Source: Bacteroidota bacterium (GTDB lineage: Bacteria > Bacteroidota > Bacteroidia > Cytophagales > Cyclobacteriaceae). Taken from it: 64,000 nt of DNA. The stretch lies in NCBI GenBank assembly GCA_027592755.1, contig JAQCLE010000002.1, positions 1 through 64,000 of the forward strand. Direction: 5' to 3'. Below are positions 72 through 13,319 of the stretch, piece after piece; the first letter of the stretch is position 1; each line of letters begins with the position of its first letter. The notes below the pieces were generated by a model that saw nothing but the letters and a program-made list of their open reading frames with translations, was not told the DNA's origin and ran no database searches. The position numbers and the translations under genes were made by a program.

Positions 72-1310
72 TTATTTAGCAATAACTGTTGTAGCTATCT
101 CAATTTTATTATTTCCGATTTGCTGTATCTTTTCAACAGCTGCCCTTATTCCATCCTTATCGGTATGAATCGTGTATTCAAGGGTGAATTTTCTTGAGGT
201 ACCCGATTTTAAAGTGGGCACCCGACCATATTTTCGTTCCACACTTCTATTATGGGGGAAACCGGTACCAGGTTCAAGGCCAGTTACGTAACCATTCGTA
301 TCCATATTTTTCCATTGGCTGAAATAGGGTAACTGTTCCCTAGGATACATAAAACTAACCGCCCTATCGCCATTAGAATTTTGGAAGAGAAAATGTGTGT
401 TACCCCCTTCATCTGCCAGAGGAAAGATGCAATTAACACGTTCAGGAATGCCAAGGCTTGGCTCGCCATAAGAGCTCCAATTATTTACGTCAGCAGAGGC
501 GAAGTCATCAAAAGGCACTACTTTTTCAATTGTACCATAAAGTTGACTTCCCTGCTCTAACAGTGGAGCGCCAAAATTAGCATGATATATCACCATGAAT
601 TCCTGATCTTTTAATGACTTATTGGTGAGTACATCATCTATCCTAAAACTGTTAGACCCTGGAATGGTCGAAACTTCAGACCATAATTCTAGATTTGTTC
701 CGTTAAATGAAACCTCATTGAGCTTGCCTCTGATACGAATGGTGTGAGGAGGGTCCTCATCTATTATGACCTCGACCTCAGACGCTGGGATGTTACCGAT
801 CTTTCCATGTAGGGTAAGAAGTCTGCCTTCGTCAAGACCCGGATGCCCGGCAAATGCCATTCCGCAGCGGACCATCCATTCATTAAAACCCTCTAACCAA
901 CCTAGCCCGTTATTTGCTTCAAGATCTATATATTTAGGATGAATAATTTCTTTTACCGGAGAATCCCAACCAAGGAAAACATCTTCATATCGGACTGAGA
1001 GTATGCTCATCCCTCTTGTTGGTATTACTGAGATATTCATCTTGCCATTATTTACCTCTATAATCTTCACTCCATCCTGCTTGCCGCCCTTTAGCTCCGT
1101 CAGGTTTACCGACCAACGTGACTCACTACCCAAGTCGAAATCATCACGAGAAAGTGACCATTCAGAAATTGAAACATTATTTTCTGCACTGATCAATATA
1201 TTTGTATGTGAAGGAATCATTGTATTTGATTGAGTGATGTTTTGTTGATTGCATGATATAAGAATGACACCGTAAGTCATCAGATGAAGCGGGAGTGTTT
1301 TGTTTTTCAT
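72..1310 (-). CDS. DUF4432 aldose-epimerase-like lipoprotein
   Basis: A 412-residue exported protein whose N-terminus is a lipoprotein signal (hydrophobic stretch, then LISC with Cys about residue 20). The body looks like the DUF4432 branch of the galactose-mutarotase superfold: a beta-sandwich protein with a conserved RGM (residues about 99-101, then LGWDSP), a His-containing LHG/ITGLEPGTGFPHN region and a GLEPGT segment near residue 345. Family knowledge suggests carbohydrate binding or sugar epimerisation at the periplasmic face, but the substrate is not readable. It follows the AroE-like gene by 22 bp on the same strand, so the two are probably co-transcribed. Confident in family, not in reaction. 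Confidence 0.75.
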   Translation of the reverse strand: MKNKTLPLHLMTYGVILISCNQQNITQSNTMIPSHTNILISAENNVSISEWSLSRDDFDLGSESRWSVNLTELKGGKQDGVKIIEVNNGKMNISVIPTRGMSILSVRYEDVFLGWDSPVKEIIHPKYIDLEANNGLGWLEGFNEWMVRCGMAFAGHPGLDEGRLLTLHGKIGNIPASEVEVIIDEDPPHTIRIRGKLNEVSFNGTNLELWSEVSTIPGSNSFRIDDVLTNKSLKDQEFMVIYHANFGAPLLEQGSQLYGTIEKVVPFDDFASADVNNWSSYGEPSLGIPERVNCIFPLADEGGNTHFLFQNSNGDRAVSFMYPREQLPYFSQWKNMDTNGYVTGLEPGTGFPHNRSVERKYGRVPTLKSGTSRKFTLEYTIHTDKDGIRAAVEKIQQIGNNKIEIATTVIAK

Positions 1311-1332
1311 GTTTTTACGAGGCTTGTGGCGA

Positions 1333-2184
1333 TCATTTATAGATTTCTTCTATCTTTTTCCTCATCACAGCCCCATCTACTTCTACACCTGACCAATATT
1401 TAATGCCGACCTTCCCCTGGTTGACTAACATACCAACTCCATCCAACGTAGTGCATCCTTTTGAATCGGCTTCTTTTAAGAATGGGGTGTAGGGAGGATT
1501 AACAATGAGATCGCAAACGACCATTCCCTCTTTAAGAGTTTCAACATCAACTGGAACTCTAACCACATTCGGTGATAAACCAATACTGGTGCAGTTGATC
1601 ACGATATCCGTACCGTTAGGGACTTCATAATCCCCGAGCCAGGGAACCAATTCACAACTAACTTTGGTTTTTTTTCGTAATAAGTTCAGCAGCGCTTTCC
1701 CTCTATCTTGACTTCTATTGACAATTATCATGTGTGCCACACCTGATAATGCGAGTTCAACTGAGACTGCCCTGGCCGCTCCTCCTGCACCGAAAATGAC
1801 CACATTTTTTCCCGTCGACTCTGTTACTTCTTTGAGCGATTCAAGAAAACCTTTGCCGTCAGTATTTTCTCCTATATATTTTCCATCACGCTCGACCACA
1901 CAATTGACCGCTTCCATGAGAGTGGCAGATTCGCCAAGACCGTCAAGATATTGAATAATGGCAACCTTATGAGGAATTGTACAATTGAAGCCTTTATAAC
2001 CCATCGCTTTTAAGCCCTCGAAAGCGGCTTTTAAGTTTTCGGACCTAACCTCAGTTGTAACGTAGTCAAAATCCATTTTGTGATGAGCAAAAGCAGCCTC
2101 GACCATTACTTCCGTGGGATTGTCCCAAACAGGGTAGCCAAAGTTGCCGACCAATTCTTTTTTGAAAGTTATTTCTTTAGGCAT
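1333..2184 (-). CDS. Shikimate dehydrogenase-like protein (AroE paralogue)
   Basis: 283 residues, the normal AroE length. The catalytic Lys region (NCTIPHK), the NTDGKGF segment with the conserved Asp and the dinucleotide-binding loop GAGGAARAV followed by NRS are all present, so it should be an NADP-linked dehydrogenase of the AroE fold. The N-terminal shikimate-binding signature (normally with two Ser and HN, SxSPxxHN) reads DNPTEVMVEAAF instead, so both Ser are lost. That argues for a different polyol or quinate-like substrate, or a paralogue rather than the housekeeping aroE. It precedes a DUF4432 gene in what seems a two-gene operon, which suggests sugar-acid or cyclitol metabolism (inference). 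Confidence 0.75.
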   Translation of the reverse strand: MPKEITFKKELVGNFGYPVWDNPTEVMVEAAFAHHKMDFDYVTTEVRSENLKAAFEGLKAMGYKGFNCTIPHKVAIIQYLDGLGESATLMEAVNCVVERDGKYIGENTDGKGFLESLKEVTESTGKNVVIFGAGGAARAVSVELALSGVAHMIIVNRSQDRGKALLNLLRKKTKVSCELVPWLGDYEVPNGTDIVINCTSIGLSPNVVRVPVDVETLKEGMVVCDLIVNPPYTPFLKEADSKGCTTLDGVGMLVNQGKVGIKYWSGVEVDGAVMRKKIEEIYK

Positions 2185-2886: not shown

Positions 2887-4545
2887 ATGAAAAAATCAGT
2901 TATTGCATTTTTAATGTTAACCAGTATTGCCGGGTTCAGTCAATCTATTGAGAAGACTTTCAAAGTAGAGAAAAAATATATCAACATACCTATAGAAAGT
3001 AATCAGGAGCGACAGCGGGTAAAGTTCAAGGTAGACGGAGAAGTTTACACGTTCAATGATATTCGAATTGCGGAAGATGAGGTCGATTACTGGACATTCG
3101 TAGATATTTCGAAATTTAAAGGGAAGAAGTTTGGTTTAGAATTCTCGAAATCTGTACCTGGAATAGAAAAGATCTACCAGTCGGACAAATTTGTTGGGGA
3201 AGAGTCCCTTTACAAGGAGAAACTGCGACCACAGGTTCATTTTACCACTCGAAGAGGTTGGAATAATGATCCCAATGGCATGGTGTATTACGAAGGAGAG
3301 TACCATCTGTATTATCAGCACAATCCATATGAAATCAACTGGGGTAACATGACATGGGGACATGCTGTTTCAAAAGATTTAGTGAACTGGGAAGAGTTAC
3401 CTTTAGCTATAGAACCAGACGATTTAGGGACCATATTTTCGGGCTCTGCAGTTATCGATTATAACAATACTTCCGGTTTCAAAAAGGGTGGAATAAATCC
3501 TTTGGTTGCGATTTATACTGCCGATATGTGGGACGAAAAGCAACAACAGTGTATTGCTTACAGTTTGGACAATGGAAGAACTTTTACCAAATATGAAGGT
3601 AACCCTGTAATCCCAGCTCAACGAAGATTTGGTTCAGGACATGAAAGAGACCCAAAGATGTTTTGGTATGAGCCTGGCAAACACTGGGTTTTGGCTATGC
3701 ATGATGCATTGAACATAAGTATATATAATTCAAAGAATTTAAAGGAATGGGAGTATCAAAGCGCCGTTGATGTAGGGTTTTGGGAATGTCCTGAATTGTT
3801 TGAACTGCCTGTAGACGGCGACGAGAACAATAAAAAATGGGTGATGTATGGTGTTACTGGAATCTATCTTATAGGAGATTTTGACGGTAAGAAATTTACC
3901 CCGGAAACAGAAATACTCAGGTATAATGTAGGAGGGGGAATGACCGCGGCACAAACTTACAATGACGAACCCACTGGAAGAAGGCTGCAAATAGGCTGGG
4001 GGCACGCCACATTTCCTGGTATGCCATTTAAGCAGACCATGACTGTGGTTCAGGAATACAGCCTGAAAACTACTAGAAACGGAGTACGCCTCTTTATTAA
4101 ACCGATTAAAGAAATAGAGAAATTATACACAAAATCTCACAAGTTTGAAAATGAATACATTGGTTATGGAATCAATGAAAAACTAGCCGAAATAAAATCG
4201 CCTTTACTGCATATTAAAGTAAAATTTGAGATAGACAACGGTAGAGTGTTTGGAATTGATATTAATGGGTATAAAATTGATTACAAGGTCAATACCAATA
4301 CGTTGAACGATATATTCTTGCCTCTTCAAAACCGCCAACTCGAATTAGAAGTGATTGTTGATAAAACCTTAATGGAGGTATATGCTAACGGCGGCCTTAT
4401 CTATTGGTTTGCAAATTACAATGAAGGGGACGCGGACAATTTTAGTCTTTCATTGACTCAGGCTGAAAATGGATTGAACCAGGATCCGAAAACCCTGGTC
4501 AGGAGCCTTGAAGTACACGAATTGAAGTCTATTTGGAATAATTAA
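2887..4545 (+). CDS. GH32 beta-fructosidase (levanase/inulinase type), secreted
   Basis: 552 residues with a Sec signal peptide (cleavage after GFSQ, about residue 19) and no lipobox, so probably periplasmic or secreted. After an N-terminal beta-rich extension (20-110), the five-bladed propeller has all three GH32 signatures: WNNDPNG with nucleophile Asp128, RDP at 254-256 and ECP with acid/base Glu300. A C-terminal beta-sandwich follows (about 400-552), ending in the EVYANGG segment. It should release fructose from fructans or sucrose-like oligosaccharides; endo versus exo action cannot be read. First intact gene of the fructan cluster; the next GH32 starts 30 bp downstream. Confidence 0.9.
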   Translation: MKKSVIAFLMLTSIAGFSQSIEKTFKVEKKYINIPIESNQERQRVKFKVDGEVYTFNDIRIAEDEVDYWTFVDISKFKGKKFGLEFSKSVPGIEKIYQSDKFVGEESLYKEKLRPQVHFTTRRGWNNDPNGMVYYEGEYHLYYQHNPYEINWGNMTWGHAVSKDLVNWEELPLAIEPDDLGTIFSGSAVIDYNNTSGFKKGGINPLVAIYTADMWDEKQQQCIAYSLDNGRTFTKYEGNPVIPAQRRFGSGHERDPKMFWYEPGKHWVLAMHDALNISIYNSKNLKEWEYQSAVDVGFWECPELFELPVDGDENNKKWVMYGVTGIYLIGDFDGKKFTPETEILRYNVGGGMTAAQTYNDEPTGRRLQIGWGHATFPGMPFKQTMTVVQEYSLKTTRNGVRLFIKPIKEIEKLYTKSHKFENEYIGYGINEKLAEIKSPLLHIKVKFEIDNGRVFGIDINGYKIDYKVNTNTLNDIFLPLQNRQLELEVIVDKTLMEVYANGGLIYWFANYNEGDADNFSLSLTQAENGLNQDPKTLVRSLEVHELKSIWNN

Positions 4546-4575
4546 GATCCTATCACCAACCTAACTTTTTAAAAC

Positions 4576-6258
4576 ATGAAGGCAGAGAGTACGGTGTTTG
4601 TTTTGAGTATCATTTTGATATCATGTATCTCTGGTAACAATTCCGTCGATAAGGGACAGGAGGCAGTTTCTGAAACTTCAGAAACTGTAGACTACACTTC
4701 AAAGGTTCCCCAATTCACCTACCCTAATACCCTGGAGGAGCAATTAGAAGCACTCAAGACTAATCCGTTAGTACTACGTTATAAGGAGTCACGTGAAAAG
4801 CTGTCTGCCGACCCGCATTTGCCTCTTTATCACTTTGTAAGCCCTGAAAATCGCATGAACGATCCAAATGGTCTTTGCTATTGGCAAGGCAGATGGCATC
4901 TTTTTTATCAGGCCTATCCACCGGAAGATCCCCGGCAGCATTGGGGTCACGCGGTAAGTGAAGACCTGATACACTGGCGGGATTTGCCTTTGGCACTTTA
5001 TCCCAATCCTGAATATCAGTGTTATTCCGGTTCGGCGCTGGTAGAAGATGATCGAGTAATCGCAATGTACCATGGTACTAGGGTTGGTAATATGGTAGCT
5101 ACGTCGAGTGATCCGTTATTGCTGAATTGGGAGAAAGTAGCTAATAAGGCAGTTGTGCCAATGACAGCGAACAGCGCAGATTTGCCATATTACGTTTATG
5201 ATCCTAATATCTGGAGGAAAGACGGCAAATATTATTCGATGTCAGGTGGGATTACCAATGACGGTCCCGGAGGAAAGCAAGTGGTTTCAAACTACCTTTT
5301 CCGTTCGGAAGATTTGGAGAATTGGGAGTATGTCCATGAGTTCATCGAAGGTGACCATTTCACGGGAACCGGAGATGACGGAGCCTGTCCGTATTTCTGG
5401 CCTATCGGCGACCGTCATATATTGCCATTTTACAGCCACATTAGCGGCGGACAATACTATATAGGTGATTATGACAAGCAGAGGGATAAATTTGTAGTCA
5501 CCAACCATGGGAAATTCAATTTCGGTGCCTCCCGGCCCGGCGGAGTACATGCACCTTCTGCAACTCCTGACCGAGAAGGAGGGGTAATCATCGTCTTTAA
5601 CATGAACGATGCCAAGCCGACCGAGGGATGGAATCAGATTATGAGCCTACCCCGCCGATTAACACTGGTTGGTGGTGATACATTGGCCCAGGCGCCAGCT
5701 GGAGATCTCGAGTCGTTGCGATATAACAAGCAATCGGTGGAGCGGATGGATCTGCCAGCAAATAAGGAAATCGTTTTAAATAATATCAGCGGAAATGCGA
5801 TGGAGATACTTGCAGAGATAGACCCCAAAGATGCTCCCATGGTTGAACTGAATGTACTTCGTTCGCCTAACAAGGAGGAATTTACCCGTATTGCTTTTTT
5901 TAAGAATCGTGGATTATATCAGGGGAGAAACTACAATCGACCAAGACCCGAAAGCTGGAAGCCGCGATATAATAGTAAGCTTACTATTGAATCATCTTAT
6001 TCGTCAATTCTGCCAGATGTTATTTCCCGGGCCCCGGAGACAGGATCATTCTTCCTTGAGGAGGGAGAAACCCTCAAACTACGCATCTTTATTGATAAAA
6101 GTGTGGTTGAAGTATTTGCTAACGGAAAACTGTGTGTAGCAATGCGGGTCTATCCCGGACTGGAAGAAAGTATAGGAGTATCAATGCGTTCTCAGGGTCG
6201 CGAAAGTGAGCTTATTTCCCTTGATGCCTATCAGATGAAAAGCATTTATGAATTATGA
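4576..6258 (+). CDS. Divergent GH32-like lipoprotein
   Basis: 560 residues; lipobox LISC with Cys17. The GH32 nucleophile motif MNDPNG (Asp96) and the WGHAVSEDLIHW strand are present, and a C-terminal beta-sandwich ends with KLRIFIDKSVVEVFANG, a GH32 hallmark. Two other catalytic signatures are altered: RDP reads YDP (208-210), and the canonical ECP reads ACP (270-272), with two Asp just upstream (GDDGACP). It therefore belongs to an atypical GH32 group, probably with a shifted acid/base residue or different substrate. It is a tandem paralogue of the next gene (shared DYTSKVP and the ENRxNDPNG region), and probably in the same operon. Confidence 0.8.
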   Translation: MKAESTVFVLSIILISCISGNNSVDKGQEAVSETSETVDYTSKVPQFTYPNTLEEQLEALKTNPLVLRYKESREKLSADPHLPLYHFVSPENRMNDPNGLCYWQGRWHLFYQAYPPEDPRQHWGHAVSEDLIHWRDLPLALYPNPEYQCYSGSALVEDDRVIAMYHGTRVGNMVATSSDPLLLNWEKVANKAVVPMTANSADLPYYVYDPNIWRKDGKYYSMSGGITNDGPGGKQVVSNYLFRSEDLENWEYVHEFIEGDHFTGTGDDGACPYFWPIGDRHILPFYSHISGGQYYIGDYDKQRDKFVVTNHGKFNFGASRPGGVHAPSATPDREGGVIIVFNMNDAKPTEGWNQIMSLPRRLTLVGGDTLAQAPAGDLESLRYNKQSVERMDLPANKEIVLNNISGNAMEILAEIDPKDAPMVELNVLRSPNKEEFTRIAFFKNRGLYQGRNYNRPRPESWKPRYNSKLTIESSYSSILPDVISRAPETGSFFLEEGETLKLRIFIDKSVVEVFANGKLCVAMRVYPGLEESIGVSMRSQGRESELISLDAYQMKSIYEL

Positions 6259-6357
6259 TCACTTGATCACTTTAGGTGTGGCGGCTCCTGAAATCTAAGA
6301 TTATCATTCATTGAATTATCAAGACCTGTAACATAAAATAGACATTAATTAAATGAT

Positions 6358-8074
6358 ATGAAACTAACGAATTTGATTGTCATAATTATCACTGTGTTCA
6401 TGGCTTGCTCAAAACCTCAAGAAGCAACACAAGTCACCGATAGCAGTCAGGAAGTCACGGAGGACTACACTTCAAAGGTTCCGAAATTTACTTTTGCCAC
6501 GACTCTGGAAGAGCAGGAAGAGCAGTTAAAAACCAACCCCCTAATACTGAGATTCAAGGAGTCAAGGAAGAAGTTGGCCGAGGATCCGCATGTGCCGTTA
6601 TATCATTTCGTAAGCCCCGAAAACAGATTGAACGATCCTAATGGGCTTTCTTTCTGGCAGGACCGTTGGCACATGTTTTACCAGGGATACCCTCCCGAAG
6701 ACCCACGCCAACATTGGGGCCATGCCGTGAGTGACGATATGATCCACTGGAAGGACCTTCCATATGCGATTTATCCCAACCCGGAACAGGCCTGTTTTTC
6801 AGGCTCAGCTTTGGTTGAAGACGACCGTGTGATTGCCATGTACCATGGAACCCGGGTGGGTAATATGGTAGCGGTATCGAGCGATCCTCTTTTGCTCAAT
6901 TGGGAAAAGGTGACCGGTCAAGCTGTTACCCATGTCAGAACCAAACGACCCCTACAGTGTGTTTGATCCGTGCATCTGGAAAAAAGATGATATGTATTAC
7001 TCACTTTCGGTTGGTAGAAAGAGTGTAGGGCCGGACAACAAGCCGGTGCGGGCCAACTACCTGTTCCGGTCGAAGGACCTGGCAAACTGGGAGTTTATGC
7101 ATCCCTTTGTTGAAGAAGACCGTTTTACCCGTGTTGGTGATGACGGGGCCTGTCCTTACTTCTGGCCTATTAGGGACCGGTACATTATGCCATTTTTCAG
7201 CCACACCAGTGGTGGCCAGTATTTGTTGGGAGATTATGACAAGAGCCGTGACAAGTTTGTTGTTACCAACCATGGTAAGTTCAATTTTGGCGCCGTTGGC
7301 CCCGGAGGGGTACATGCTCCTTCTGCCGTACCGGATGGAAATGGAGGCTTGATTATTATTTTTAACATGAACCCTGGAAAACCGACCGTAGGTTGGAATC
7401 AAATTATGAGTTTACCCAGACGACTTACGATGATCGAAGAAAACGAAATTGGTATGGAACCCTACGGCGATATTGAATCCCTTCGCTATGGCTATCAGCA
7501 AGTCGATGCAATGACCCTCCCTGCAAACGAAGAAATTGTTTTCAAAAATATAAAAGGAAACGCGCTGGAGATCATTGCAGAAATTGATCCTAAGGATGCC
7601 CAAATGATCGAAATGAATGTTTTGCGCTCCCCCAAAAAGGAGGAGTACACCCGTATCGTTTTCCAGAAAGATCGTGGAAAAAGAAAAATTCGTCCATACG
7701 GTACGGATGTTCCGCGGCAACCTGATAGTGTGTTGTCCAAGGCACGGAATGTTTATGAGAGTTTGATTACCATCGAGTCATCTTATTCCTCAGTGCTCCC
7801 GGATGTCCGTTCCAGGGCTCCCGAAACCGGTCCAATCGTTCTTGAACAGGACGAAACTCTCAAACTTCGAATTTTCATTGATAAAAGTGTGGTAGAGGTT
7901 TTTGCCAATGGTCGGCAATGTGTTGCTCAGCGGGTTTATCCAGGTTTGGAAGAAAGTGTCGGAGTTTCGCTTCGCTCCCAGAGAAGTGAAAGCCAACCAC
8001 TGTCTTTGGAGGCATGGCAAATGAAGAGCATTTATGAACAGAATGAAGGTTTTGTTGCGAATCTTTTAGAGTGA
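6358..8074 (+). pseudogene. Divergent GH32-like lipoprotein, frameshifted
   Basis: Paralogue of the preceding gene split into two overlapping frames: 6358-6966 carries the lipoprotein signal (FMAC, Cys about 17) and NDPNG nucleophile region, while 6932-8074 carries FDP in place of RDP, GDDGACP in place of ECP, and the C-terminal sandwich with KLRIFIDKSVVEVFANG. Alignment with the neighbour places the shift at about 6929-6932 (GTTACCCATGTCA), where the neighbour reads AVVPM and this gene would read AVTPM if two bases were restored. Both halves are otherwise intact, so the break is recent or a sequence error. The second half has its own ATG at 6932 but no signal peptide. Confidence 0.85.
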
Positions 8075-9039
8075 ATATTGATGTGAAAGATGTAACAAGA
8101 CCAAGTGCCAAAGATTTAGCTAAATTTCATGGTCCGCTTACAGACCTGTTTCCGAAGCCATCTAATTCGGATGAATGGAAAGAGTATGCATTGTCTGAAT
8201 CTCAGATCAAATTTTATAAGGAAAATGGATTTTTGACGGGCATTAAAATTCTAACAGAATCCCAGGTTGTGGCCTTTCAGGAGGAATTAACAAATCTGTT
8301 AGATCCTACGCCGGAACAAAAAAAGCTTTTCTATCACTACAAGAGCAATGAATCCGAGGATCCCCACAAAATATTATTCCATGCTTTGGGAGCATGGCGT
8401 GTTTCTCCTCTTTTTCATGATGTCCTTTGGTCACCCGCATTCCGAATGGCAGCATACCAGCTATTGGGATTGTCTTATAGGCAATTCCATGACCAGTTGT
8501 TTTGTAAACCTGCCAGGCATGGTGGAGCGGTGGCCTGGCATCAAGACTTTTCCTATTGGACCTGGACCAAACCGAATACGCATTTGTCCTGTTGGATTAG
8601 CCTCGATGATGTCACTACAGAAAATGGATGTGTTTACTTCATTCCGGGGAGTCATAAGTGGGGATTGTTGCCTATTACTGGTCTGACCGGCGACATGGAG
8701 GCCGTCAATGAGGTATTGGATGAGAAGAAAAAGGACGCGATGAGGCTTAAATTTCCCAATGAACTAAAAAGAGGGTATGCCAGCTTCCATAGTTCTGTGA
8801 CAATGCATGGTTCGTACGCGAACTTTTCTGAGCAACAGCGGAGAGCCATGGTTATAAACGTCATGGGCGCTGACACTTTATCCAACATAAATTCAGTGGA
8901 TAGAGAAGAGGACCTAAAAGATTTCCCAACTTTTCCACAGGATAGCCCCATGACCGGGACTTATTATCCGATCTTATTTGATGAAGATCAGGAATTAGGA
9001 AGGTTGAAAACTGATATTCTGACTATCAAAGATTTCTAA
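8071..9039 (+). CDS. Phytanoyl-CoA dioxygenase (PhyH) family oxygenase
   Basis: 322 residues, cytoplasmic by lack of a signal. The Fe(II)/2-oxoglutarate facial triad is visible: His157 and Asp159 in AVAWHQDFSYW, and the distal His246 in TMHGSYANFSEQQRRA, with an Arg at 257-258 for 2-oxoglutarate. The substrate is not deducible. The GTG start overlaps the TGA of the GH32-like gene by four bases (GTGA), implying translational coupling, and the next GH32-like gene begins 15 bp after its stop. Its place inside a run of fructan-degrading genes is unusual and suggests it hydroxylates a sugar-linked substituent or product (inference). Confidence 0.8.
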   Translation: MNIDVKDVTRPSAKDLAKFHGPLTDLFPKPSNSDEWKEYALSESQIKFYKENGFLTGIKILTESQVVAFQEELTNLLDPTPEQKKLFYHYKSNESEDPHKILFHALGAWRVSPLFHDVLWSPAFRMAAYQLLGLSYRQFHDQLFCKPARHGGAVAWHQDFSYWTWTKPNTHLSCWISLDDVTTENGCVYFIPGSHKWGLLPITGLTGDMEAVNEVLDEKKKDAMRLKFPNELKRGYASFHSSVTMHGSYANFSEQQRRAMVINVMGADTLSNINSVDREEDLKDFPTFPQDSPMTGTYYPILFDEDQELGRLKTDILTIKDF

Positions 9040-9054
9040 TCTAAACTTCGAATT

Positions 9055-10725
9055 ATGAAACGAAAATTGGTCTATATATTAGGTTTTATAATAAATATTT
9101 GGGTTACTTCTTGTTCTTCGAAAATGGATAATGCAGGTGAAAGGACTATTGCCAACGAGCATAGCTCAAATATTAATAAATTGATTTACAACGCCCGGAA
9201 TCTTCGGGAGCTTCTTTGGAAGGATCAACACCGGCCTCGATACCATCTCTTGCCACCGGAAGGCTTTTTTAATGATGCCAATGGGGCACTTTTTTGGAAA
9301 GGGCGATATCATATGTTTTACCTCGCCCGTACTCCGATTCCGCATCCTGAAGAGCCAGGTAAAGAAAGATGGGTAGCAGTATGGGACCATGTTTCCAGCA
9401 GAGATCTGGTTCATTGGATATATCATCCGCCGGCGATCAGTCCGAGGCTCGATGGTTCTATGCCGCAAGGGATCTACAGCGGAGGAGCTATCAAGAATGC
9501 TCCTCAGCCGACTTTGATTTACCATGTGCCCGGGCAAGGCACCTGTATTTCGATTGCCCAGGATGAGGATTTGATCAATTGGAAGGAACTACCTCAAAAC
9601 CCAGTTATCAAGCCTCACACGGATGAAGATGAGTATGTAGTGTTTGATCCGGCTGGATGGTATGAGAACGGCAAATATTACGCATTGATTGGCAACAAAA
9701 ATAAACGTCCGGGCTATGAAGGTGATTGTACGAGCTTATTCATATCTACCGATTTAGTCAACTGGGATTACCAGGGGCCCTTTTACAAATCCAATAGGGA
9801 GTGGACTCTTGAAGCAGAAGATGCTGCATGTCCGGACTTTTATCCAATTGGAGATAAGCATATGCTACTTATGCATGGTCATAGGCCCTATAGAAACATA
9901 ACGCACTATTACCTCGGAACCTATAAGGACGAACATTTCTTTCCCGAGCAACATGGTCGTATGAGTTGGCTGGGAGGTCAATTGTCAGGGCCCGAATCGC
10001 TTATTGATGACCAGGGACGGAATATCTTTTTTGGTTGGATTGCCGAATCAAGGACAGGAGGAGAGTCTCTTTGGGGTTATGATAGTGAAGTAGATCCTGG
10101 AAAAAATGATCTCTATGCCTGGGCATCGGCGGTAAGTTTACCTCGTGTCATGTCCTTGACGGAAAATGGTGATTTAGGTATTGCCCCGGCACCGGAATTG
10201 GAGGCTCTTCGATTCAATCAACGTCAGAGAAATAATATCACAATCCCCGCCGACGGGCAAGTGACTCTGGAGCAAATGGCTGGAGATGTGATGGAATTAT
10301 CAGTTGAAATTGATCCCGGGGATTCTGAGGAAATCGGAGTAAAAGTGCGCTGTTCACCGGATGGCTCTGAAGAAACTTTAATTACGTATAACCAAAAGAA
10401 AAAAATACTAAAGATCGATTTCGAAAATTCAACAGTCGGAGATAACGTTGCGTATAGAGGGTTTTATTCCACTGAGCCCTCCGAAGGGAAGGATATAACT
10501 ACACAGGAAGCTCCTCTTCAACTTGTAGAAAATGAGACCTTAAAATTGCGTATCTTTATTGATCGCTCCATCATTGAAGTTTTTGCTAATGGACGTCAAA
10601 GTATTACCCAGCGGATTTACCCTTCAAAGCCAGAGAGCAATGAGGTAAGGCTGTATAATAAAGGAGGTTCCGGAACGGCTTTGGTCGTAAAGGCCTGGGA
10701 CATGGATCAGACAATGCCATGGTAA
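9055..10725 (+). CDS. Divergent GH32-like lipoprotein, second subtype
   Basis: 556 residues; lipobox VTSC with Cys20. GH32-like propeller with FFNDANG (Asp74; the usual Pro is Ala), FDP (197-199) instead of RDP, and AACPD (Cys259) instead of ECPD, preceded by EAED. The C-terminal beta-sandwich ends in KLRIFIDRSIIEVFANG, so the two-domain architecture is kept. It is only distantly similar to the 4576 and 6358 genes but shares their substitutions at the second and third catalytic signatures. Preceded closely by the PhyH gene. Possibly acts on a modified fructan or other fructoside; function inferred only from family and context. Confidence 0.78.
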   Translation: MKRKLVYILGFIINIWVTSCSSKMDNAGERTIANEHSSNINKLIYNARNLRELLWKDQHRPRYHLLPPEGFFNDANGALFWKGRYHMFYLARTPIPHPEEPGKERWVAVWDHVSSRDLVHWIYHPPAISPRLDGSMPQGIYSGGAIKNAPQPTLIYHVPGQGTCISIAQDEDLINWKELPQNPVIKPHTDEDEYVVFDPAGWYENGKYYALIGNKNKRPGYEGDCTSLFISTDLVNWDYQGPFYKSNREWTLEAEDAACPDFYPIGDKHMLLMHGHRPYRNITHYYLGTYKDEHFFPEQHGRMSWLGGQLSGPESLIDDQGRNIFFGWIAESRTGGESLWGYDSEVDPGKNDLYAWASAVSLPRVMSLTENGDLGIAPAPELEALRFNQRQRNNITIPADGQVTLEQMAGDVMELSVEIDPGDSEEIGVKVRCSPDGSEETLITYNQKKKILKIDFENSTVGDNVAYRGFYSTEPSEGKDITTQEAPLQLVENETLKLRIFIDRSIIEVFANGRQSITQRIYPSKPESNEVRLYNKGGSGTALVVKAWDMDQTMPW

Positions 10726-10797
10726 AATATTCAACGACGAAAGAAAATTCTAAAACTAATAAGATAATCGTACTAACAATATTCTAAATCAATAAAC

Positions 10798-12378
10798 ATG
10801 AAAAGGATTAATAAGTTATTCATTTCCCTTTTGCAGGGAACTCTGTTGGTGCTTTTGGTACAATGCCAGCAGGCGGACTCAAACAAAGAAATGCAAACAG
10901 AAACAGGTTACTATCAGGAGCAGTATCGTCCACAATTTCATTTTTCTCCAGAATCAGGTTGGATGAATGATCCAAATGGAATGTTCTATTATGATGGGGA
11001 ATACCATCTCTTCTATCAACACTATCCAGACAGTACCGTCTGGGGTCCCATGCATTGGGCACACGCTGTAAGTACAGACATGGTTAGTTGGGAGCACCTT
11101 CCAATTGGGTTATATCCTGACGATCTGGGGTATATATTTTCGGGAAGTGCCGTTGTCGACTGGAAGAATACGACTGGATTTGGTAGCGAAGACAACCCCC
11201 CAATGGTAGCCATATTTACCCATCATTCAGCCGAGGGCTCCAAGGCTGGAAGAACCGATTATCAGAACCAGAGTATTGCCTATAGCCTGGATAAGGGACG
11301 TACCTGGACCAAATATGAAGGAAATCCGGTGCTTCCAAACCAGGGCATAAAAGACTTCAGGGACCCTAAGGTTTCGTGGCATGAAGCTTCTCAAAAATGG
11401 GTGATGATCCTGGCAGTTTGGGATCATGTAGAGCTTTATGGATCACCTGATCTGAAATCATGGAACAAATTGAGCGATTTTGGTCTTGAACATGGAAATC
11501 ACGGTGGGGTCTGGGAATGCCCGGATCTGTTTGAACTACCCATTGAAGGAAGTGATGAATCGAGGTGGGTAATGTTCGTGAGTATTGGCAGGGGAGGGCC
11601 AAACAAAGGTTCTGCAACGCAATATTTCATCGGACAATTTGATGGGCAGCAATTCACAAATGAGAATTCAAAAGAAACCGAACTGTGGGTAGATGCCGGT
11701 CCTGATAATTATGCCGGTGTAACCTGGTCAGATATTCCCAAAGGGGACGGCCGCAGATTATTTATTGGTTGGATGAGCAACTGGGAATATGCCCAGGTAG
11801 TTCCCACGGAAAAATGGCGTAGTGCCATGACCGTAGCTAGAGCACTTAAATTACAGCAAACAGACGCCGGCCTGAGAATGACCAGTAGCCCGGTTCAGGA
11901 ATTTATAAAGGTCAGGGCGGAATCAAATGAGATCAGCACGCAAGCAGTATCAGGAGCAGTGCAATTGGAGAACATATCCTTCACTACATTATCAGACGTA
12001 CGACTTGAGTTTACTGATTTCGTCCAGAGCAGTGAGTTTGGCTTAAAGCTCTCCAATGAAGCCGGAGAAGAAGTGTTGATGGGATACTCTCCAAAAACCG
12101 GACAGTTCTTTATCGATAGATCAAAATCAGGTATAAGTGATTTTCATGAACTTTTTGCCCGGAGACAAACCGCTGAAAGGAGTTCAGCATCAGATGTTAT
12201 TAAGCTGCGAATTTTGTTGGATGCTTCGTCTATCGAGTTGTTTGGCGATGAAGGTTCTTCCGTAATGACAGCCCTGGTTTTTCCGACCTCAGCATATACT
12301 AAAGTTAGTCTTTTTAGTAAGGATGGATCGGCTCAACTGACTTCGGGACAAATGTCGACAGTGAATTCAATATGGTGA
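10798..12378 (+). CDS. GH32 beta-fructosidase lipoprotein (levanase/inulinase type)
   Basis: 526 residues; lipobox LVQC with Cys23, so anchored in a membrane. All three GH32 catalytic signatures are canonical: WMNDPNG with Asp58, FRDP (188-190) and WECPDLF with Glu240. The IFSGSAVVDWKNT strand and the SWNKLSDFG blade are also typical of exo-acting levanases and inulinases. The C-terminal sandwich runs from about 390 and ends with the LRILLDASSIELFGD segment. It lies 72 bp after the previous gene and 71 bp before the fructokinase, consistent with one transcription unit converting fructan to cytoplasmic fructose-6-phosphate. Confidence 0.9.
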   Translation: MKRINKLFISLLQGTLLVLLVQCQQADSNKEMQTETGYYQEQYRPQFHFSPESGWMNDPNGMFYYDGEYHLFYQHYPDSTVWGPMHWAHAVSTDMVSWEHLPIGLYPDDLGYIFSGSAVVDWKNTTGFGSEDNPPMVAIFTHHSAEGSKAGRTDYQNQSIAYSLDKGRTWTKYEGNPVLPNQGIKDFRDPKVSWHEASQKWVMILAVWDHVELYGSPDLKSWNKLSDFGLEHGNHGGVWECPDLFELPIEGSDESRWVMFVSIGRGGPNKGSATQYFIGQFDGQQFTNENSKETELWVDAGPDNYAGVTWSDIPKGDGRRLFIGWMSNWEYAQVVPTEKWRSAMTVARALKLQQTDAGLRMTSSPVQEFIKVRAESNEISTQAVSGAVQLENISFTTLSDVRLEFTDFVQSSEFGLKLSNEAGEEVLMGYSPKTGQFFIDRSKSGISDFHELFARRQTAERSSASDVIKLRILLDASSIELFGDEGSSVMTALVFPTSAYTKVSLFSKDGSAQLTSGQMSTVNSIW

Positions 12379-12449
12379 TAAATAATACGGCCAATTGCTT
12401 GGGATGGCAATAGGGAAAACCATAATTTACTTGCTTAAACATTACACAA

Positions 12450-13319
12450 ATGAAAGTATTGTCGTTTGGCGAGGTATTATGGGATATTATTGGTGAGGAT
12501 GCCCACCTGGGTGGAGCCCCTCTCAACTTTGCCGCTCATTCTGTCCAATGCGGAGGTCAGTCATCGATGCTTTCTCGATTGGGAAACGACGATTTTGGGA
12601 GAGATGCCGGCTTTCAAATTGGAAAATTAGGCGTGGACACCAACCTTCTTCAGATTGATCAGGACCATCCCACGGGAACGGTCCCGGTTACGTTGGTAGA
12701 TGGTCAGCCCGACTATTATATCACGCCAAACGCGGCTTATGATTTCATTGATTTAGGCGAGGCCAAAGCTGTTCGGGATGAAAGTAATTTTGAGGTATTG
12801 TACTACGGAACTTTGGTACAAAGAGGACAGTCTGGTGATGCGCTGAAAAAGATTCTTGACAATTATAAATTTCGTCTGAAATTCTGTGACATCAATATGC
12901 GAAAAGATTGCTATAGTGAGGAAATTATACGTTTCTCACTTGGGCATGCGACTGTCGCTAAATTGAACGAATATGAAGTGATAGAAGTTGGTCAGATGTT
13001 ATCACAGGCCGATTTTGTACCAAAGTTACTTGGTGTCTTCCCGCAACTTGAGCATGTTATTCTTACTGTAGGAGGAGAAGGATGTTATGTGTTTCAAGAT
13101 CACACCTTGCATCACATTAAAAGTGAGCCCGTCCATGTGGTGGATGCGATTGGGGCAGGTGATTCTTTCAGTGCAGCATTCATGTACTCCTTTTTTAAAT
13201 CTGGTGATGTCTTGAAATCTGCCGAAATTGGAAATAAAGTTGGAGGTTTTGTTGCGTCATCCGCCGGAGCAATTCCCAAATACCCGGAAGCGATAGTTAA
13301 GCTTCTTCAGTCCATTTAA
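12450..13319 (+). CDS. Fructokinase, PfkB (ribokinase) family
   Basis: 289 residues, cytoplasmic. The N-terminal GEVLWDI and GGAPLNFAAH segments are the substrate-binding signature typical of bacterial fructokinases, and the C-terminal PfkB signature DAIGAGDSFSAAF carries the catalytic Asp and anion hole. Expected reaction: ATP plus D-fructose to fructose-6-phosphate. It ends the fructan gene run and provides the cytoplasmic step for fructose released by the GH32 enzymes; the corresponding transporter is not in the window. Start at the ATG of MKVLSFGEVL fits the usual family N-terminus. Confidence 0.9.
   Translation: MKVLSFGEVLWDIIGEDAHLGGAPLNFAAHSVQCGGQSSMLSRLGNDDFGRDAGFQIGKLGVDTNLLQIDQDHPTGTVPVTLVDGQPDYYITPNAAYDFIDLGEAKAVRDESNFEVLYYGTLVQRGQSGDALKKILDNYKFRLKFCDINMRKDCYSEEIIRFSLGHATVAKLNEYEVIEVGQMLSQADFVPKLLGVFPQLEHVILTVGGEGCYVFQDHTLHHIKSEPVHVVDAIGAGDSFSAAFMYSFFKSGDVLKSAEIGNKVGGFVASSAGAIPKYPEAIVKLLQSI

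Follow-up and report, generated by a model that had tools for sequence, protein, structure and literature searches.

A conserved GH32-like variant that lacks the RDP arginine and the ECP glutamate, from a Cyclobacteriaceae operon and several other phyla

Glycoside hydrolases of family GH32 in clan GH-J, such as the Thermotoga maritima (Tm) invertase 1uyp and Frischella perrara 7vco, share a propeller plus beta-sandwich fold, a nucleophile Asp in the NDPNG motif, a second Asp in RDP, an acid/base Glu in ECP and an SGS-type serine. The Arg of RDP is completely conserved in the clan and raises the pKa of the acid/base Glu; fructose is bound at O3 and O4 by the RDP Asp and, in AtcwINV1, at O6 by W47 (PMC3360783). 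Departures from these motifs have been described. The "cluster 4" proteins of butyrate producers, likewise classified as GH32 with altered motifs, have Gly for the Asn of NDPNG, keep R, D and E, and are inactive on sucrose, kestose, nystose, inulin, levan and arabinan (PMC7833758). Plant defective invertases such as Nin88 likewise have the GH32 fold and do not act as invertases; in these the catalytic triad is reported never to be affected, and it is the Asp/Lys couple that is changed (PMC3713406).

The proteins described here differ from both groups. They are encoded in a Bacteroidota bacterium of the family Cyclobacteriaceae (GenBank assembly GCA_027592755.1), in a window that is the whole stretch of DNA analysed (64,000 nucleotides, positions 1 to 64,000 of contig JAQCLE010000002.1). 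Seven co-directional genes at 2887-13319 form an apparent operon with intergenic gaps of 30, 99, -4, 15, 72 and 71 nt, in the order canonical GH32, GH32-like, broken GH32-like, PhyH, GH32-like, canonical GH32 and PfkB kinase. The features are as follows.

72-2184, minus strand: divergent genes for a DUF4432 (aldose-epimerase-like) protein and an AroE-like dehydrogenase
2887-4545, plus strand: canonical GH32 (DUF4980 and GH32N; NDPNG, RDP, WECP) that opens the run; from translation, domain match and alignment
4576-6258, plus strand: non-canonical GH32-fold lipoprotein, 560 aa, intact, with GH32N and GH32C and lipobox LISC
4858-4872, plus strand: NDPNG of the 4576 protein, with nucleophile Asp96 (Tm D17); from alignment columns
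5197-5205, plus strand: YDP (Y208-D209-P210) of the 4576 protein at the RDP site; from alignment
5371-5391, plus strand: GDDGACP (266-272) of the 4576 protein, with the acidic pair D267-D268 and Ala270 at the acid/base Glu site
5437-5439, plus strand: His288 of the 4576 protein, clade-specific (column of Tm T208)
6358-8074, plus strand: second non-canonical GH32-like gene, frameshifted (ORFs 6358-6966 and 6932-8074), 69-74% identical to the 4576 protein
6926-6934, plus strand: approximate frameshift site of the 6358 gene, from comparison with the 4576 protein
7136-7156, plus strand: GDDGACP of the split 6358 gene
8071-9039, plus strand: PhyH-type Fe(II)/2-oxoglutarate dioxygenase, overlapping the preceding gene by 4 nt
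9055-10725, plus strand: third non-canonical GH32-fold lipoprotein, 556 aa, intact
9643-9651, plus strand: FDP (F197-D198-P199) of the 9055 protein at the RDP site; from alignment
9811-9834, plus strand: EAEDAACP of the 9055 protein, with the acidic pair E255-D256 and Ala258 at the Glu site; from alignment
10798-12378, plus strand: canonical GH32 (NDPNG, RDP, WECP); from translation, domain match and alignment
12450-13319, plus strand: PfkB-family sugar kinase (fructokinase-like) that closes the run

A preliminary description of this DNA had noted three GH32-like proteins with Tyr or Phe at the RDP Arg and Ala at the ECP Glu, lying between two canonical GH32 genes. Read again in translations and alignments, both substitutions are present in all three, and the flanking genes at 2887-4545 and 10798-12378 do carry NDPNG, RDP and WECP. 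The motifs are NRMNDPNG, VYDPNIW and GTGDDGACPYFW in the 4576-6258 protein, NRLNDPNG, VFDPCIW and VGDDGACPYFW in the split 6358 gene, and GFFNDANG, VFDPAGW and EAEDAACPDFY in the 9055-10725 protein. Three details of the earlier reading needed amendment. The nucleophile Asp of NDxNG is indeed kept throughout, with NDANG rather than NDPNG in the 9055 protein; the transition-state motif, which had been called missing, has lost its Arg and retains the transition-state Asp in all three; and of the "three proteins", those at 4576 and 9055 are intact, whereas the gene at 6358 is broken into two ORFs, the first of which (6358-6966) ends out of frame. Because both halves of this gene show nonsynonymous divergence as low as that of intact homologs, the frameshift would be either a recent break or an assembly error. 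The 9055 protein belongs to a different subfamily, with 33% identity to the 4576 protein and 58% to a Poribacteria protein. The lipobox suggests that these lipoproteins are exported.

That these proteins have the GH32 fold is clear from their predicted structures, which contain the GH32N and GH32C domains as a five-bladed propeller and sandwich. AlphaFold models reached a mean pLDDT of 86.5 for the 4576 protein and 73.9 for the 9055 protein, and against solved structures the top matches of both were all GH32: for 4576, 7vco with Z 39.1 and rmsd 2.7 over 450 aligned residues; for 9055, Z 36.5 and rmsd 2.6 over 445. The closest PDB sequences to the two proteins are also canonical GH32, and identity to 1uyp and 7vco is 25-28% over the structural alignment. 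The acidic loop is modelled at low confidence in both (pLDDT 63 for block 261-270 of 4576, below 50 for residues 246-254 of 9055).

Within this fold, the active site is changed in a consistent way. We compared residue columns, in 1uyp numbering via alignment, between 29 members of the non-canonical clade and 19 canonical rows. The nucleophile Asp in ND(P/A)NG (D96, Tm D17) and S151 (Tm S75) are present in 29/29 clade members, and the RDP Asp (D209, Tm D138) in 28/29. The Arg at Tm R137, found in 19/19 canonical rows, occurs in none of the 29, where F, Y, W, G, A or H stands instead; likewise the acid/base Glu at Tm E190, present in 18/19 canonical rows, is lost in 29/29 (A, S, M or G). Two or three residues upstream of the lost Glu lies the acidic pair [DE]267-D268, which as a pair is absent from canonical GH32. 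Position 267 (Tm K187 column) is Asp or Glu in every clade member, about half each, and position 268 (Tm E188 column) is Asp in 28/29 and Asn once, in L163. Position 288 (Tm T208 column) is His in 29/29 and is new relative to canonical GH32. Moreover, W41 is lost in 24/29 members and W260 in at least 26/29. Since the missing Arg would normally modulate the pKa of the missing Glu, their disappearance amounts to one coupled change; on the alignment, both residues have changed along with some of the pocket that binds the sugar, and the nucleophile and the O3/O4-binding Asp have stayed. Given that other canonical sugar-binding positions are changed as well, a substrate different from that of canonical GH32 is plausible. 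The clade also departs from the two described groups of altered GH32 proteins: the 4576 and 9055 proteins keep the Asn and lose R and E, unlike cluster 4, and the intact triad with a lost Asp/Lys couple that marks plant-type defective invertases is not the clade's pattern, in which the acid/base Glu is lost. One further clade member, L159 (1456-2952), also lacks the RDP Asp, reading SGAPCAW with Ala at the D209 position.

The altered motifs could have reflected chance or decay. To survey homologs, bacterial and archaeal species genomes were scanned with the two intact proteins as queries and with seed patterns that exclude the altered motifs. This yielded 269 relatives. The best 80 loci share 57-69% identity and are spread over Poribacteria, Latescibacterota, Planctomycetota, Chloroflexota, Gemmatimonadota, Verrucomicrobia and others. 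The variant extends the GH32 repertoire, as the preliminary description had proposed, and does so far beyond this window. Nearly all of these 80 are metagenome-assembled genomes (MAGs), whose bin labels may err (e.g., "Williamsia" for L020, a contig with SusC/SusD genes). When 77 homologs chosen on similarity alone were aligned with the 4576 protein, [FY]DP and DDG[AS]CPYF were found in every row and the ECP Glu in 0/78. Nonsynonymous divergence (pN) is about 0.2-0.3, with synonymous sites at saturation. Because similarity-picked homologs keep both altered motifs and pN is low where synonymous sites are saturated, comparison of the sequences excludes chance or decay and indicates purifying selection.

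The loss of Arg and Glu together had a single origin. A tree of 52 sequences, built after masking the motif columns, splits 29 non-canonical from 23 canonical GH32 sequences by a single change with support 100/98; part of the 29 clade rows were selected with the motifs already known, and the 77-homolog set is independent of motifs. Further paralogs of the clade lie on contigs C39, C63 and C133 of the source genome, and a second Poribacteria paralog within the clade has the motif GEDGAVP. Outside the clade, a DUF4980-type GH32 relative on contig C151 (L004, 928-2775) keeps RDP and reads GDPNG and HSCP; here a member of the canonical branch has lost the acid/base Glu independently.

The preliminary description had suggested that an acid just upstream took over from the Glu. 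This gains strong, if indirect, support: the pair site is acidic in 29/29 members, canonical GH32 has no such pair, and the Arg and Glu losses share one origin. We therefore weigh as the main reading, at a probability of about 0.5, that these proteins are active exported glycoside hydrolases whose proton donor has moved to the [DE]D loop and whose substrate is furanosidic, fructose-like and non-canonical. The NDPNG Asp would stay the nucleophile; the [DE]D loop, possibly assisted by the new H288, would take over from the ECP Glu as proton donor and acceptor; and the -1 pocket would take a fructofuranose-like unit other than beta-D-fructofuranosyl, whether another ketose, a modified fructose or a related furanose. 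Two observations count against relocation. The Asn at the second acid in L163 and the Ala at D209 in L159 imply that neither residue is absolutely required unless both proteins are inactive, and the roughly even division between Asp and Glu at 267 is unusual for a catalytic acid.

The invariant His invites a different account, an inverting, lytic or substrate-assisted mechanism in which the NDPNG Asp serves as base and either H288 or the acidic pair as acid. In its favor, every clade member has H288, which is new compared with canonical GH32, and His acids occur in other five-bladed propeller glycosidases (GH117). The environment of the nucleophile (D96, S151), however, shows no change, and we consider this account unlikely. 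Less likely still is an ordinary fructan hydrolase, in which the substitutions merely tune a normal beta-fructosidase, with inulin, levan or sucrose still cleaved. Such an enzyme would fit the GH32 Pfam scores, which lie far above the cut-off, and an operon that also encodes canonical GH32 and a fructokinase-like protein. However, the acid/base is missing, as is an Arg for which complete conservation has been reported (PMC3360783), and even less altered proteins classified as GH32 showed no activity on common fructans (PMC7833758). On balance, the relocated acid/base is favored, at even odds, over these two accounts and over the pseudoenzyme considered below.

Genomic context points to a fructose-type or furanosidic sugar as substrate, with support from the canonical GH32 neighbors and the PfkB gene of the run and from several other loci. 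The L020 locus combines SusC and SusD with a GH32-like gene, a canonical GH32 gene and a hybrid sensor whose periplasmic domain is of a sugar-binding type. L058 (76-3780, from a Verrucomicrobiia MAG) encodes a natural fusion protein of 1234 aa that joins a GH32-like domain (NDPNG/FDP/GDDGACP) to a canonical domain (NDPNG/RDP/ECP). The C39 cluster of the source genome contains a gene of family GH172 (DUF2961; PMC8605356), a family that acts on fructofuranosyl-type sugars; its fold is unrelated, so it serves as a clue from context. Contig C133 carries a ribose-type ABC transporter, a PfkB kinase and a ketose-bisphosphate aldolase. A tie to canonical fructan breakdown would nevertheless not be general, since in 8/37 genomes the GH32-like protein is the sole GH32N match.

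These same data bear on whether the proteins are enzymes at all. They might have lost catalysis and act as exported sugar-binding or regulatory helpers of the flanking GH32 enzymes, in a way that recalls plant defective invertases. Both the acid/base Glu and the Arg that partners it are gone, the genes adjoin or are fused to canonical GH32, and defective Nin88 plays a helper role (PMC3713406). We regard such helpers as improbable: the nucleophile Asp (29/29), the RDP Asp (28/29) and a newly conserved acidic pair and His occupy the former catalytic loops, the 8/37 genomes hold no other GH32 to be helped, and the plant proteins, with their triad intact, are no parallel (PMC3713406).

Other recurrent neighbors were considered as partners and rejected. 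A sulfatase lies within 10 kb at 31/79 loci, yet only 4 copies are within 2 kb, which is not specific for an obligate partner; a UxuA-like neighbor at 23 loci, about 90% mutually identical, reflects shared synteny of one lineage; and PhyH is near few loci only. In the 80 outside loci there were no relatives of AroE, DUF4432, DUF2961 or DUF1080.

Within its own class the gene is rare. Carriers number 2/395 same-class genomes, the source genome included, and 58 near relatives gave no match of comparable score; this patchy spread points to horizontal transfer. In the other same-class carrier, G550, the gene lies amid FG-GAP/ASPIC and SusC/SusD-like genes (L178, 2857-19900), with no second GH32 or other recognized glycosidase nearby. 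Plasmid records gave canonical-type or other GH32 matches where checked, none with [DE]Dxx[CV]P, and no named cultured carrier was found.

A search of the open literature found no GH32 protein in which the RDP Arg and the ECP Glu are both missing, and the clade is a conserved GH32 variant undescribed within the literature searched. The beta-galactosidase Lac161_ORF10 (PMC5342196) was set aside as a precedent; it is a PF04041 protein outside the clade. As two defining GH32 motifs fail, the best annotation is "GH32-like, clan GH-J fold", not fructanase. This matters for annotation, where the GH32 label implies that Poribacteria, Latescibacterota, Planctomycetota and Chloroflexota use fructans; with a rewired active site, if that is what these proteins have, such predictions are wrong and an undescribed activity is to be found. 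With Arg and Glu lost jointly, an acidic pair and His gained, and hundreds of close homologs, the clade is a clean natural case for studying how a glycosidase might relocate its acid/base. More tentatively, with somewhat less confidence than in the relocation itself, the clade may be in effect a separate glycoside hydrolase family in clan GH-J, with its own constellation (Asp96, Asp209, [DE]267-D268, His288), an undescribed substrate and horizontal spread among sponge-associated and other environmental phyla.

Two neighboring features deserve mention. In 18 loci, the gene immediately after the GH32-like one encodes a 240-aa protein without a Pfam match (L044, 11574-12296, and relatives). In the source genome, the pair of AroE-like dehydrogenase and DUF4432 genes adjoins GH32-type genes twice, at 72-2184 of the window and at L102 3551-5668, where the GH32-type gene beside it is another non-canonical GH32 of this genome; the pair is possibly a sugar catabolic module.
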